Program-made: the position numbers and the translations under genes
The notes under the pieces: generated by a model
Database searches by the model: none
Told to the model about the DNA's origin: nothing
The model's input: only the letters and a program-made list of their open reading frames with translations
Shown here: piece by piece, positions 38,041 to 51,588 of the stretch
Numbering within the stretch: the first letter of the stretch is position 1
How the letters are laid out: each line of letters starts with the position of its first letter
Assembly: GCF_008086165.1 (NCBI RefSeq)
Contig: NZ_VSKL01000003.1
Coordinates: 62,001 to 126,000, forward strand
DNA length: 64,000 nt
Direction: 5' to 3'
Source of the DNA: Algorimicrobium algoritergicola
GTDB lineage: Bacteria; Bacteroidota; Bacteroidia; Flavobacteriales; Flavobacteriaceae

Positions 38041-38434
38041 GGGGTCGACTGGTTTTGACAGCGAGATCACTCATTTGGTAAGCACGTCGTGTAATGACTT
38101 TGAAACACGTAAAAGGCTAGGTCACACTTTTAAACGGCGAGAATAACTACGCTTTAGCTGCATAATCTGAATTATAGTAAGATTTGTGCTTATTCCTACT
38201 AGGTAGGAAGGCTAAATGTCTCCTGAAAGCCTTGATTAACGGCGTTCTATAAGAGACATCGTAAAAGTTAATATAGCATATATGGCGCTTTGATGTATAT
38301 GTGAAACTCAAAAAGATAAGGTGTAAGTGGGTTGTCTTTAACCAGCTTACGCACGAAAAAACAAGAAAAGAATAAACGTGTAGAAGGCCCTTTGATGGCT
38401 TGTTTGGACGAGGGTTCGATTCCCTCCGACTCCA
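38041..38434 (+). ncRNA. ssrA: Transfer-messenger RNA (tmRNA)
   Basis: 394 bases without CCA. The 5' GGGGTCG pairs with CGACTCC near the 3' end (one G-U), forming the alanine acceptor stem; TTCGATTCC is the T-loop. The tag frame at 38136-38165 reads GENNYALAA then TAA, the Bacteroidota form of the degradation tag. The pseudoknot region between has paired segments as usual. The 3' terminus lacks an encoded CCA. Open frames drawn over this locus on the minus strand are spurious. Confidence 0.96.
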
Positions 38435-38470
38435 CAATTACCCGCAACATGGTTGCGATTTTAAGCATAA

Positions 38471-38502: not shown

Positions 38503-38722
38503 GTTGTTTAAAAGCGCTTGGGCTGAAAGCAGAACAGGTTGCGTTTACAGAATGGGAGTGATTGGGAACAACGCAGTTAATCTCGACGACCCCCACTTTT
38601 AACCCCGTAAGAGTTTGACTTACATGGTTTTATTTTTTTTAAGGAATAATTTTTGGGATAATTTATTTATGCAAAAATGATTAAAATTATTTTTTCCAAG
38701 CGATACCTCTACACACTTAAAT

Positions 38723-38738: not shown

Positions 38739-38788
38739 TTTCTACTTTGGGTTTAAATATCTTATATTTGATAATGACATAATGTAGG

Positions 38789-38806
38789 TATAGACAATTG
38801 TCTATA
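38789..38806. repeat. 18-bp perfect palindrome
   Basis: TATAGACAA followed directly by TTGTCTATA, located between the -7 box and the cassette-like boundary at 38814. Confidence 0.5.
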
Positions 38807-38846
38807 TCCAATTGTTGGCATTCATTTAAAAAAAAACCAGTAATTA

Positions 38847-39650
38847 ATGGAATTATCGTTTGATTCTTGTTTAATAGAATTAAGAAAAATCGAAAATATT
38901 TTAGATAGAAGTATAGATAACAAATCTCAATTATTGACGAAGAAAATAGGTGTATTCAACATTTTCAAAAACCTAATATCGAACCTAATTATTCTCAAAA
39001 ATTTAAATAGTGAAAATTGCAATACCCAGACATTTGCTACTTTATCTCGAATGATAATTGACAATTATGCAGGTTTCTATTTACTCACCTCACATTCAAA
39101 TGAGAATGAAAAACAATTACGATATTATCTATACTTAATCGATTCATTGCAAAGTCGAATCAATACAATATCTGATTTTGCAAGTAGTCTAAAAGACAAC
39201 AGGTTTGTCAAATCCTTTGATACTTCAAATGACATTATTATTCACGATAAAAAATCCATTGCTAACATAATTGAAAAGATAAAAAAAGAAAAATTAGATA
39301 TTTTAGCCACACCGAAAATCATTAAAAACAGAAATTGGAAATACATATCAGGAGATTCTGAAAAAGAACGTTATAGCTGGGAGGAATTATATAACATTGC
39401 TAAAATTCCTGAACATTTCTCAAAAATGATTCAAAATCATTACTCTACTTATGCGCACGGACTTGGAATGACAATTCTTTACTCCGAAAGAAATGAGGGT
39501 TTAATTAATCCTACTTTTTTATTTTTTGCGCTCATTCAACTTAATTTAGCAAAAATCATTATAAATGAATTTGAAATAGACGTGGTAAAGGCTAATTTGG
39601 ACAACAATTTTATAGCTCAAATGGAATTTCATTGGGATAATTGGAAATAA
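38847..39650 (+). CDS. Orphan protein in a cassette-like unit, mostly helical
   Basis: 267 residues, no signal peptide, no membrane segment, predicted mostly helical. ATG 38847. Near the C-terminus NHYSTYAHGLGM has an S-x3-H arrangement that occurs in some DUF5677/HEPN-like proteins, but the match is too weak to name. Codon use is very AT-rich, with few GC-rich codons compared with the trp genes. The gene is framed by GTTGGCATT before and AATGCCAAC after it, which is how the ends of an integron cassette behave. Function unknown. Confidence 0.68.
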   Translation: MELSFDSCLIELRKIENILDRSIDNKSQLLTKKIGVFNIFKNLISNLIILKNLNSENCNTQTFATLSRMIIDNYAGFYLLTSHSNENEKQLRYYLYLIDSLQSRINTISDFASSLKDNRFVKSFDTSNDIIIHDKKSIANIIEKIKKEKLDILATPKIIKNRNWKYISGDSEKERYSWEELYNIAKIPEHFSKMIQNHYSTYAHGLGMTILYSERNEGLINPTFLFFALIQLNLAKIIINEFEIDVVKANLDNNFIAQMEFHWDNWK

Positions 39651-39657
39651 AAAACGA

Positions 39658-39793
39658 AATGCCAACAATGTGTATAAGCAATGGTTTGTCCTCGCCTACT
39701 TGGAAATTCCTACGGAATTTCCAATGGTAAGTACTTGTTTGCAATTGTCCGTGACGTCCCACGCCACTGCTCATACACGAAACGTTGTACGTA
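39658..39793 (+). repeat. attC-like palindromic recombination site
   Basis: 136 bases directly after the orphan gene. Outer CCAAC/GTTG ends; then a 16-base arm at 39669-39684 that pairs with 39764-39779 (13 Watson-Crick, one G-U, two mismatches); and an 11-bp perfect inner stem around a TAC loop at 39700-39724. The outer ends approach the attC boxes RYYYAAC and GTTRRRY: two and one mismatches respectively. No integrase gene is present in the window. Confidence 0.55.
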
Positions 39794-39848
39794 ATTTGTG
39801 TAACAATCGGAAATAGAACTAGTCTTTAGATAGAAACATCAATCAATT

Positions 39849-41339
39849 ATGAAAATAAAATACTTACTTCTATTACTTTTAGTAACAATTCAAAGTTGCA
39901 AATCACAAGAAAACGTAAATACTGAATCCATCAAAAAAACCTTTTTGAAAGAGCAGGTTGCACTTGGCGCACCTTGGAAATATTTACGTTCAAATCCCTA
40001 TACATTCAATTCGTTAAATCAAGTTAATTTTACTCATAAGGTTGATTCTTTAAAAAATATCTACACGGCACAACTAAAAGAATATAAAGGAAAATTGGAC
40101 AAATACACATTTAATGATGAAGCCTTGGGAATAAATTATTACTTCGACAAATTCATTCTTGAATATCCACAAAATCACAAAAACTTTACAGGAGAAAAAA
40201 CAACTTTATCAGAAAAAAATCAATCGAGATTAAAAGAAAACCTTAAAAATTTTAACGATATCAAGTTACTTTCCAATTCGGTTTTAAAGGAATATATAAT
40301 ATCCTATATTAGAATCGAATCTAACAAAAAATTGAAAAGTGGTATATATGCCAAAATAGATAATCAGCAATTGACTGCCGATTGGAATACTATCGAAACA
40401 ACATTTAGAAATCAAGATGCAAATGATTTTTGGAAACAAGAATATTTATTCAATCACATCGACAATTTGGGAATTAAAAACATAGACACTTTTTATGCAG
40501 ATTTTATCACTTCTTCCAAAACTTCAGAATACAAAATAAAAATTCAAAAGATATACGAATCTAGCAAAAAAGAGAGAGAATCTCATATTATTGAAACATA
40601 TAAAAAAGTAGATGGTTTTAACCTGGAAATGCACATATTCTTACCTGACACAACTGTTTTTAAAGGAAATAGACCAACTATTGTTTACTTTCACGGAGGA
40701 AGTTGGTCAGAAGGGAAACCTGATTGGTTTTTTGAAACTGCAAAAGAATATGCAAAACAAGGTTGGGTTGCCACATCTGTAGAATATAGAATAAAAGGAA
40801 GACAAGGCACATATCCATTTGAAGCAGTCAAAGACGCAAAATCTGCAATACGTTGGCTTCGGGAACATTCAAAAAAATATAAAATTGACCCGAACAAAAT
40901 TTTAGCAACAGGAAATTCAGCAGGTGGTCATTTATCTATAGCTACGACTTTAGTAGATAATTGGAATGAAAAAACTGATAATATTGCCATAAGTCCAAAG
41001 CCAAATGTAGTAATTGTAAATTCAGCTGTTTATAATCTAACTTCTAATAGTAATAGATGGATAACAGAATATGATGAAAATAAAGATTTAGTAAAAGAAA
41101 TATCACCTAATAATCTTATTAAGAAAACATTGACAAAATTTTTGTTAATTCACGGAGAGAAAGACAGGAATTGTCCTTATAGTACAGCAGAGTATTTTTA
41201 CAATAAAATGCAGTCTTTGGGAAATAGTGTTGAATTACATTCAATAAAAGATGGTGAGCATTTTATTTGGTATGGACAGCATTCTCAAGAAGTAGAAAAG
41301 ATAACGAGAGATTATATTAATACGCTAAACTTGGAATAA
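39849..41339 (+). CDS. Alpha/beta hydrolase lipoprotein in a cassette-like unit
   Basis: 496 residues. Signal peptide with IQSC as lipobox. A 250-residue N-terminal part has no known motif; the C-terminal half is an esterase/lipase of the HSL type: FHGGSW (oxyanion, 281-286), GNSAGG with Ser357, HGEKDRNC with Asp439 and GEHFIW with His471, a complete triad. Start ATG 39849. Its left side carries GTTGTACGTA (39784-39793) and its right side TACGCACAAC (41344-41353), complementary but for one base, as expected for a mobile cassette. Substrate unknown. Confidence 0.8.
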   Translation: MKIKYLLLLLLVTIQSCKSQENVNTESIKKTFLKEQVALGAPWKYLRSNPYTFNSLNQVNFTHKVDSLKNIYTAQLKEYKGKLDKYTFNDEALGINYYFDKFILEYPQNHKNFTGEKTTLSEKNQSRLKENLKNFNDIKLLSNSVLKEYIISYIRIESNKKLKSGIYAKIDNQQLTADWNTIETTFRNQDANDFWKQEYLFNHIDNLGIKNIDTFYADFITSSKTSEYKIKIQKIYESSKKERESHIIETYKKVDGFNLEMHIFLPDTTVFKGNRPTIVYFHGGSWSEGKPDWFFETAKEYAKQGWVATSVEYRIKGRQGTYPFEAVKDAKSAIRWLREHSKKYKIDPNKILATGNSAGGHLSIATTLVDNWNEKTDNIAISPKPNVVIVNSAVYNLTSNSNRWITEYDENKDLVKEISPNNLIKKTLTKFLLIHGEKDRNCPYSTAEYFYNKMQSLGNSVELHSIKDGEHFIWYGQHSQEVEKITRDYINTLNLE

Positions 41340-41651
41340 AAACTACGCACAACAAAGTACTGTAAAACAAGTAAAAACTCATTAACTTTTCACCAAAGTA
41401 CTTCTATAAGTATCGTCATATATTAATCCTGATTTTATTAAAATACTTCATAATCTAGTTGACAAACCAGTTGACAATTTGTTCTAATAAGTTGATATTT
41501 ATTCCGAATGCTGTGCTCTTCAATTAAAATAATGTGTTGCTACTTTACTCTAAAGCTTTTTAGTTTAATTTTATTAGATTTGAATTCAGAATCTAGATTT
41601 AGACCATGGTCCATATCCAGTTGCTATGATTAATTAAATAAAAACAAAATT
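41340..41651. other. Intergenic region after the hydrolase cassette
   Basis: 312 bases. TACGCACAAC at 41344-41353 would be the first box of a second attC-like site; its partner half is not found, so that site is broken or ends here. There are two direct GTTGACAA copies near 41459 and 41472 and a GACCATGGTC palindrome near 41602. No gene. Confidence 0.45.
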
Positions 41652-42606: not shown

Positions 42607-42614
42607 TAACTTTG
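42607..42614 (+). promoter_or_regulatory. -7 box for the hydrolase gene
   Basis: TAACTTTG, perfect -7 match, only 12 bases before the ATG at 42627, giving a very short 5' leader. Confidence 0.45.
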
Positions 42615-42626
42615 TTAAAAAAAACT

Positions 42627-43460
42627 ATGAACACAAAAATAGGTTCCCTTCTACTGTTTTCTATTTTACTTTGTAACTGCGCTTCTAGAAAAATAAAAGA
42701 TGTTGCTTATTTAAAATCTGCAGATACTAAAACAACAATGCAGCCTGCGTTAAATGTTTTTGAACCTAAAAATTCCAAAGCTGCAAAAAATCCGGTGGTG
42801 ATTTTTGTGCATGGTGGCTATTGGACAGAAGGTGACAAAAACACTTACGGGTTTTTAGGAAGAAATTTTGCCAAAAGTGATGTTGTCACTGTAATTGCTG
42901 GCTATACGTTAAGTCCGAATGCTAATTATGATTCGATGGCTAAAGAAATTGCACAAGCAGTTAACTGGACTGTAAAAAATATTGAAAAGTATAAAGGTGA
43001 TCCTGAACAAATTTATGTCATGGGTCATAGTGCTGGAGGTCATTTAATTGCTTTAATTGCTACAAATCCAAAATATTTAGAAAATAAGAATGTGCTTAAA
43101 GGTGTTATTTTAAATGATGCCGCTGGTTTAGATATGAAAACATATTTAGATAAAAACCCACCAACAAGCGAACATCATTATGATGTAACTTGGACTAAAG
43201 ATCCAGCAAACTGGAAAGACGCTTCTCCTATTTATTTTATGGATGAAAGCATGCCTCCTTTTTTAATTTATGTAGGCGAAAAAACCTATAATTCAATCAT
43301 TTCGCAAAACGAAGCTTTTGTTGCAAAATTAAAAACCTATCAACCAGATATAGAACCCATTTTCTTAAATAAGAAACATGTACCAATGATGTCACAATTT
43401 ATTTTTCCTTGGAATAAGAGGTATGATGAAATTTTGCAATTTATTAAATCAGATAAATAA
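42627..43460 (+). CDS. Esterase/lipase-like alpha/beta hydrolase, secreted
   Basis: 277 residues. Signal peptide, mature end with ASRKIKD; oxyanion VHGGYW (61-66), nucleophile MGHSAGGHL (Ser135), candidate His252 in NKKHVPM. The usual acid position after strand 7 reads VGEKTYN, where the cassette hydrolase has GEKDRN, so the common Asp is Thr here and the acid may come from elsewhere or be missing. ATG 42627 is preferred to the TTG at 42612, which would put lysines in front of the signal peptide and sits inside the -7 box. Confidence 0.82.
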   Translation: MNTKIGSLLLFSILLCNCASRKIKDVAYLKSADTKTTMQPALNVFEPKNSKAAKNPVVIFVHGGYWTEGDKNTYGFLGRNFAKSDVVTVIAGYTLSPNANYDSMAKEIAQAVNWTVKNIEKYKGDPEQIYVMGHSAGGHLIALIATNPKYLENKNVLKGVILNDAAGLDMKTYLDKNPPTSEHHYDVTWTKDPANWKDASPIYFMDESMPPFLIYVGEKTYNSIISQNEAFVAKLKTYQPDIEPIFLNKKHVPMMSQFIFPWNKRYDEILQFIKSDK

Positions 43461-51409: not shown

Positions 51410-51439
51410 TTGGTTAGTTAAATTTTCATTTTATATTTG
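51410..51439 (+). promoter_or_regulatory. Promoter of the trp operon
   Basis: TTG at 51410-51412, a 19-base spacer and TATATTTG at 51432-51439: both elements of the Bacteroidota promoter at the right distance, 19 bases before the leader peptide ATG. Confidence 0.7.
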
Positions 51440-51457
51440 GCATATATTAAAATACTC

Positions 51458-51520
51458 ATGAACACAATTTTAAATCATACGTGGTGGTGGAACAATCGAA
51501 ACTCAAAATTCGTGAACTAA
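51458..51520 (+). CDS. trpL: trp leader peptide with three consecutive Trp codons
   Basis: 20 codons: ATG at 51458, TGG TGG TGG at 51482-51490, TAA at 51518-51520. The product is MNTILNHTWWWNNRNSKFVN. A Trp-rich short peptide between the promoter and a terminator ahead of trpE is the classic attenuation arrangement. Confidence 0.85.
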   Translation: MNTILNHTWWWNNRNSKFVN

Positions 51521-51551
51521 TCCTATCCGTATATTTAAATTAAACATACTC

Positions 51552-51588
51552 AAAAAGGCTTGTCATTCACGACAAGCCTTTTTTTTTT
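51552..51588 (+). terminator. Attenuator terminator before trpE
   Basis: A 13-bp perfect stem (AAAAAGGCTTGTC against GACAAGCCTTTTT) with a 6-base loop, followed by a long T-run, 12 bases before the trpE ATG. A 7-base element at the end of trpL (51510-51516) can pair with the loop and start of the 3' arm (51566-51572) and so could serve as the antiterminator. Confidence 0.9.

Follow-up and report, generated by a model that had tools for sequence, protein, structure and literature searches.

Two adjacent genes directly behind the transfer-messenger RNA (tmRNA) gene of Algorimicrobium algoritergicola are, with good confidence as far as sequence comparison reaches, cassettes belonging to a flavobacterial integron that were brought into a secondary site and work in an integron-like manner. 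They lie in a 64,000-nt stretch of contig NZ_VSKL01000003.1 (positions 62,001 to 126,000), referred to here as the window. The evidence consists of ends that pair within each cassette, a family of folded attC-like sites shared with many relatives, and a recombinase that heads arrays of such sites. Below, G000 denotes the window's own genome and other G numbers its relatives, the congeners including G295–G299.

Cassette ends and attC-like sites

Each of the two genes is framed by complementary ends, which are present as a preliminary description of the window had given them: GTTGGCATT (38814–38822) and AATGCCAAC (39658–39666) around gene 1 are exact complements, and GTTGTACGTA (39784–39793) and TACGCACAAC (41344–41353) around gene 2 pair with one mismatch. 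The uninterrupted complementary match at gene 1 is ATTGTTGGCATT, and the pairing extends to GTTGGCATTCATTT versus GTTGGCATTTCGTTT, so that the 5' box of cassette 1, GTTGGCATT-CATTT, is complementary to its own R'' box except for one extra base on the R'' side. At gene 2 the pairing extends to GTTGTACGTAATTT versus GTTGTGCGTAGTTT. The longest complementary word between the 75 nt upstream and the 40 nt downstream was sought for 61 of the 66 open reading frames (ORFs) of the window, five overlapping ones being omitted; gene 1 reached 12 nt and the other 60 ORFs had at most 9 nt. The intergenic stretch between genes 1 and 2 forms a hairpin, with the bottom strand at -24.7 kcal/mol (z -3.7) and the top strand at -19.1 kcal/mol (z -2.1).

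The same rule was followed through 408 cassettes, which were taken from G000, from four relatives and from 26 named loci selected for matching the pattern. As had been proposed for both window genes, the 5' end of a cassette, i.e., the 3' flank of the preceding site, complements the R'' box of its own, next site. Agreement was 85–92% at box positions 4–9 (32–54% when shuffled), 64% at position 10 (40%) and 75–88% at positions 12–14 (44–60%), with a site detector that was blind to the box positions compared. The box match averaged 5.94 of 8; no shuffle out of 1000 exceeded 2.93, and boxes compared within one site gave 2.82. Position 11 agreed in 2% of the cassettes and differed in 98%, both window cassettes included; in 333 of the 408 an A stands against a G, so that the top strand has an A.C mismatch where the bottom strand has a T.G wobble. 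The longer pairing with an extra base, as in gene 1, recurs in 39 of the cassettes by a criterion that we set ourselves. All that the R boxes retain of the canonical sequence is AAC/GTT and, at position 4, a purine.

Sites of this kind were collected with the pattern ATACACGWAMN{0,4}GTTG, which has nine matches in G000 versus two for the reversed pattern, one of the nine (on contig C25) being without site-like surroundings. A BLAST search of the intergenic stretch against the same genome gave 30 matches at E ≤10, just three of them below E 0.03. When a genome contig collection was scanned with the pattern, at least 108 stretches were found, many from Flavobacteriaceae (Confluentibacter, Psychroserpens, Winogradskyella, Polaribacter), with further matches scattered across unrelated phyla; unrelated taxa appeared as low-scoring rows among the matches listed. 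From the scan and from G000 we took 106 strictly patterned sites, of which 54 were dissimilar and 48 were aligned to build model R1; the six dissimilar sites omitted were five of unusual length and L159:2445-2589. The helix of R1 covaries, with 72 double-changed cells versus 24.5 in shuffled data and between 3 and 22 after sliding of the partner, and the central hairpins are similar between sites. The site of cassette 1 scores 94.0 bits with R1 (39663–39788) and is itself among the 48 sites used to build it.

Other copies of the end pattern, whose absence from the genome and from related genomes the preliminary description had named as part of a refutation, are plentiful, and the refutation fails on this point. 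In G000, over the parts of the genome that were fetched, R1 finds 40 sites at E ≤0.003 on contigs C1, C2, C5, C6, C11, C23, C28 and C29, and R1 matches at E ≤0.01 occur in 90 of 149 relatives, G000 counted and at most 23 candidates scored per genome. The G000 sites lie on one strand per contig, except for two weaker opposite-strand R1 matches that overlap better ones and one opposite match on C5 given by a looser detector; among these contigs, C1 has 11 sites of this new type, C2 has 8 and C6 has 6. R1 gave 309 matches in 25 sources, comprising the window and stretches of both G000 and five relatives. A first position-weight detector was too insensitive and was loosened, the loosened version giving 4 hits per 158,945 shuffled bases. 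As a separate observation, three G000 contig ends (L031 1–200, L034 and L036, on C6, C29 and C11) share a leader of ~200 nt that includes an ORF end and is followed by a site with AACTTAAGC on the R'' side instead of a box; this leader is perhaps a second repeat entering attC-like sites.

Top-strand A.C pairs occur at two column pairs of the site arms in 47 of the 48 sites, and the arms overall hold 141 A.C versus 24 G.T cells. With DNA parameters the bottom strand was more stable in 45 of the 48 sites (Wilcoxon p 3e-9, the sites being non-independent) and in 23 of 48 random stretches; bottom-strand use is described as a property of attC sites in passages of PMC3053210. The modelled arms contain no fixed extrahelical base, with constant wobbles instead, and the spacers in A1 are unequal (2 nt, 4–5 nt).

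The coordinates of the block are given in Table 1. Because an IS110-family remnant (IS, insertion sequence) has cut the site of cassette 2, leaving only its R'' box, the block falls short of a CALIN, a cluster of attC sites lacking an integron integrase, for which IntegronFinder 2.0 requires two attC (definition as given in passages of PMC9024848). Of the CALIN-type array of two proposed in the preliminary description, the cassettes in an assembly where no intact integrase was found are retained, as in a CALIN, and the second attC site is not, the window holding one complete site, of non-canonical type, plus the relic of cassette 2.

Table 1. Features of the cassette block and its upstream neighbour in the window
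Feature	Position	Strand	Remarks
tmRNA gene (ssrA)	38041..38437	+	directly upstream of the cassette block; Rfam RF00023, 141.1 bits
Block insertion site, attI-like	38788..38814	+	3' end TATAGACAATTGTCTATATCCAATTG; crossover inferred between G 38814 and TT 38815
Cassette 1	38815..39784	+	970 bp, G|TT to G|TT
Gene 1	38847..39650	+	267 aa, orphan
attC-like site of cassette 1	39653..39787	+	R'' box through AATGCCAAC, CGTGTAT-type arm, central hairpin, ATACACG arm, R' GTTG
Cassette 2	39785..41353	+	site truncated; 5' box GTTGTACGTAATTT pairs with R'' box AAACTACGCACAAC, 41340–41353
Gene 2	39849..41339	+	496 aa alpha/beta hydrolase, BD-FAE/esterase-like; PF20434, E 1e-33
IS110-family remnant	41353..41436	+	interrupts the attC-like site of cassette 2 at ...CACAA|CAAAGTACTG

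Gene 1, called an orphan in the preliminary description, had no Pfam, PHROGs or PADLOC match and no homologue at E 1e-5 among the other 148 relatives searched. Gene 2, called a lipoprotein esterase, has the esterase-like match of Table 1 and a start that looks lipoprotein-like by eye; it had no homologue at E 1e-30 in five congeners and distant matches in 16 of the 148 other genomes. A second BD-FAE/esterase-like gene lies nearby at 42612–43460. Since its counterpart beside the tmRNA block of G296 is 98.9% identical, this gene belongs to the shared flank, outside the cassettes. An Rfam search of the window returned the tmRNA and a Bacteroidete tryptophan peptide leader RNA (51438–51564; RF01692, 63.5 bits) only, with nothing up to E 1 for the cassette block.

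The IS110-family remnant has seven other strong copies in G000; all of them start at one and the same base, preceded by a box with AA at its end, and one copy carries a PF02371 transposase. Two more matches are weak (72–75% identity). The same element end follows the last tmRNA-locus cassette in G296 and G297. These elements and remnants at a fixed base (L299–L304 and window 41353–41436) form a flavobacterial parallel to the IS1111-attC group, with which they share, in the position and family compared, an IS110-type transposase and one fixed insertion base (as described in passages of PMC11187229, which cites Tetu and Holmes 2008 and Post and Hall 2009), the host group being different.

Arrays and the linked recombinase

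Tandem cassettes of one orientation were seen in relatives and on G000 contigs. The sites of an array lie on the same strand in 37 of 37 cases in G296, 46 of 46 and 53 of 54 in the two arrays of G313, 52 of 53 in G367 and 70 of 70 in G344. Cassettes have a median length of 732 bp (n = 274), and 211 of them hold an ORF of at least 60 aa, the longest ORF being co-oriented with the site in 203 and opposed in 8. Among 116 sampled cassette proteins there were matches to 67 Pfam families, with DUF6090 (seven proteins) the commonest of the best 25, and to 46 PADLOC families, the best 25 of which include HamA and ThsB with one protein each; a few of the 116 match phage-defence or immunity families (HamA, ThsB, WapI).

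Cassettes are shared between genomes as units, and one cassette can stand in different surroundings. In a comparison of 311 cassettes, 37 rows passed the cut, reciprocal pairs being counted twice; in 19 of the 37 rows the homology ended on the right at most 5 nt from the predicted border, in 6 it did so on the left, and most remaining left ends ran 12–141 nt into the preceding site, whose sequence is similar too. A 332-bp cassette of G296 recurs on contig C1 of G000 at 97.9% identity, the match running from -4 to +2 relative to its predicted borders, and is present twice on C6. A cassette of ~970 bp with a cation-efflux gene occurs in G000, G295, G296 (twice) and G299.

In relatives, arrays of this type can be headed by a tyrosine recombinase. 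In G296 the first site lies 587 nt downstream of the end of a 388-aa recombinase, and one of 390 aa heads the second array of G313. Both have ~95 extra N-terminal residues, followed by a SAM-like domain and PF00589. The extra part is predicted as a small alpha/beta domain by a structure model built on 5 sequences (mean predicted local distance difference test score 76.9, predicted template modelling score 0.53); because this model is of modest quality, its fold matches carry little weight. The best sequence matches among solved structures were 4a8e and 5hxy, then IntI4 (2a3v), and the fold search gave the same order of kinds. Scores with TIGR02249 (integron integrase) were 203.1 and 197.2 bits, with a cut-off of 265, and those with NF040815 were 216 and 214 bits versus a cut-off of 220. 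In a tree built from 73 recombinases, the two IntI proteins stand apart as a pair (100/99), as do the host Xer proteins, long branches being flagged.

At 18 of 30 integrase loci a site was detected downstream, with the array co-directional with the integrase; in 17 of these 18 the first cassette begins at an attI resembling ATATAACnAG|TT, 45 to 257 nt behind the integrase match. Integrase-like matches and sites go together: among 149 genomes, 71 have both, 6 the integrase only, 19 sites only and 53 neither (Fisher p 2e-17), and within the family the corresponding numbers are 66, 1, 13 and 10 (p 2e-6). The threshold for an integrase-like match (E ≤1e-40) was chosen after inspection of the data, and kinship inflates both p values. 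A search of viral contigs with the integrase gave one distant locus at 25% identity, and the integrase matches in phage records and, among those listed, in plasmid records were all below 60% identity.

The window's genome retains a trace of such an enzyme. A remnant 85% identical to integrase residues 1–61, with two in-frame stops, lies near the end of contig C23, on the same contig as the cassette block and ~218 kb from it, behind a gene named by eye as polynucleotide-phosphorylase-like. The preliminary description had seen no integrase. This holds for an intact one, as no intact array-type integrase was found in the 29-contig assembly, where an intact copy may sit in a gap; it does not hold for the broken remnant, nor for the recombinase of the relatives. 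The repeat that follows the remnant, also found beside sites on C29 and in G295, is probably an insertion sequence. An IntI in G000, which the preliminary description had proposed to seek, was rejected, no TIGR02249 match being above cut-off; what the genome does hold is the remnant of the array-type recombinase.

With this enzyme, the proposed mechanism runs as follows. The recombinase would excise cassettes as circles; attI or other G|TT sites would then receive attC as a folded bottom strand inserted by this enzyme, and replication would resolve the junction, as in classical integrons. Position and co-occurrence suggest the array-linked recombinase as the enzyme acting on the sites. Because the integrase is broken and the site of cassette 2 is lost, the block has probably lost its mobility by now, unless it is served by another recombinase.

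The tmRNA locus and alternative explanations

Four of the six genomes of the genus (G000, G295, G296 and G297) have a site at the tmRNA locus; in G298 the contig stops ~80 nt past the tmRNA, and in G299 no site was found in 2 kb. G296 carries the identical 28 nt TATAGACAATTGTCTATATCCAATTGTT, then a different cassette. The insertion sites at the tmRNA locus are unlike the integrase-linked attI. A general role of tmRNA as a cassette site was rejected, since 30 tmRNA loci of other genera, with up to ~1.5 kb of flank each, gave no same-direction site and three weak opposite matches. Repeats were also seen behind the tmRNA in congeners: a 48-nt part of the post-tmRNA sequence of G296 recurs beyond the block (L277 6746–6793), and in G295 (L281) a tandem repeat includes the tmRNA 3' end. 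They are perhaps traces of an old tmRNA-targeting element. The stretch behind the tmRNA in the window, 38563–38586 (TGGGAACAACGCAGTTAATCTCGA), is single-copy in G000.

Genes for tmRNA are a frequent target of genomic islands, and the block could be the leftover of a tmRNA-targeting island, with borders that stem from the island instead of from a cassette entering a chromosomal site; the repeats in G296 and G295 fit this explanation. We regard it as unlikely. The similarity between congeners drops at the GTT, from 94% over the 32 nt up to it to 43% beyond between G000 and G296, and from 81% to 37% between G295 and G297, which have another shared sequence there. Furthermore, the first cassettes at the locus start with proper boxes. 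An island may still have carried the platform, which is compatible with the two genes being cassettes. Even less credible is that the hairpins are terminators or self-spreading repeats of the REP (repetitive extragenic palindromic) or MITE (miniature inverted-repeat transposable element) kind, with intervening genes that are not mobile units. Their position at gene 3' ends, their palindromic form, their copy number and the similar central hairpins are what such repeats would display, but spreading repeats leave unexplained why boxes pair within their own cassette and not with those of the neighbours, why strand-uniform arrays are headed by a recombinase and an attI, and why shared units end at the predicted borders.

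The AAC/GTT core, the G|TT border and the box rule are all classical, and it is conceivable that ordinary cassettes of an IntI integron reached this flavobacterium by chance from elsewhere, as a canonical CALIN. A true IntI does exist in the class, in one genome out of 295 (L043 in G142, TIGR02249 421.9 bits, above cut-off), and passages of PMC9892861 report a CALIN in the Polaribacter phage P12002L whose attC2 is active with IntI1. R1 finds seven sites at E ≤0.013 on one strand of this phage (L379 31117–39711), one of which may be attC2. The R1-type sites of P12002L lie among opposite-strand genes, several beside DNA methyltransferase genes. We nevertheless consider this origin highly improbable, as GTTRRRY occurs at chance level only, as TIGR02249 exceeds its cut-off in that single class genome and not in G000, and as the IntI insertion is missing from the array-linked recombinases, which fall outside the IntI pair in the tree.

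Several results weigh against an integron-like system served by the array-linked enzyme. The canonical boxes expected in the preliminary description did not hold up, GTTRRRY fitting 23 of the 408 R boxes where chance gives 25.5. In the alignment, the recombinases lack the insertion common to IntI1 and the G142 IntI, which is regarded as required for activity, and in the tree those with a downstream site need three changes and form no single clean clade. No integrase was found among the ORFs at the head of the first G313 array. No downstream site was found at 12 of the 30 integrase loci (seven with <450 nt of contig left, five with ~1.5 kb), and upstream of the integrase three of the 30 have a same-direction site and two an opposite one. 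There are 19 genomes with sites and no integrase-like match, and six with the converse. Finally, the 5' box and the terminal R'' box of the last tmRNA-locus cassette in G296 are mismatched.

Judged by its sequence, the array-linked enzyme is not an IntI under the accepted definition, in which, according to passages of PMC9668308 and PMC2426708, the additional domain is a defining trait. Because defining traits of a canonical IntI integron are lacking (the IntI insertion, the divergent integrase and GTTRRRY boxes), we do not place the system in the IntI family. We lean towards a separate integron lineage of Flavobacteriaceae, whose Xer/IntI-like recombinase would read folded single-stranded attC sites despite lacking the IntI insertion, with an attI behind a co-directional integrase. 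In such a lineage, attC would perhaps be recognised through the fixed wobble pairs and the added N-terminal domain.

Relation to known integrons

The closest likeness is to sedentary chromosomal integrons, with which the flavobacterial arrays share same-strand organization, the AAC/GTT core, complementarity to the own box, a bottom strand that folds better, and a recombinase with attI at the array head. The differences concern both partners. The recombinase is without the IntI insertion and has ~95 extra N-terminal residues; the attI lies behind a co-directional integrase, whereas the classical intI is usually divergent from the cassette array. The sites differ from classical attC in their non-GTTRRRY boxes, in constant A.C pairs of the top strand, which are T.G wobbles when the bottom strand folds, and in modelled arms with no fixed extrahelical base. 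XerA/Xer proteins and the integron-like tyrosine recombinases of NF040815 are alike in the best structure matches (4a8e, 5hxy) and in the near-cut-off NF040815 scores; the array-linked enzymes differ from the host Xer in lying outside the Xer clade, in their linkage to attC-like arrays and in the added N-terminal domain. Passages of PMC8138268 describe the insertion as 'not fully conserved' in a subgroup of integron-like recombinases.

In passages of the literature, integrons are reported as rare in Bacteroidota (PMC9024848), with only In0 known earlier in Bacteroidetes and then one complete integron, in Salinibacter, found with IntegronFinder 2.0 (PMC9024848); a review counts Bacteroidota among the integron-bearing phyla (PMC8618304), and the available main text of a study on taxon-specific attC sites mentions neither Bacteroidetes nor Flavobacteri- (PMC8352920). 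We recognised no publication that describes the flavobacterial system, in a literature coverage that left out preprints and most subscription journals. The two genes very probably belong to a large and apparently undescribed kind of integron that occurs across marine flavobacteria. If this is true, large cassette arrays are present in many members of an abundant marine family, and searches based on IntI or GTTRRRY would probably miss them. The recombinase would offer a natural enzyme for a direct test of the role of the IntI insertion, and single-strand cassette capture would have arisen or persisted without a domain supposed to be essential.

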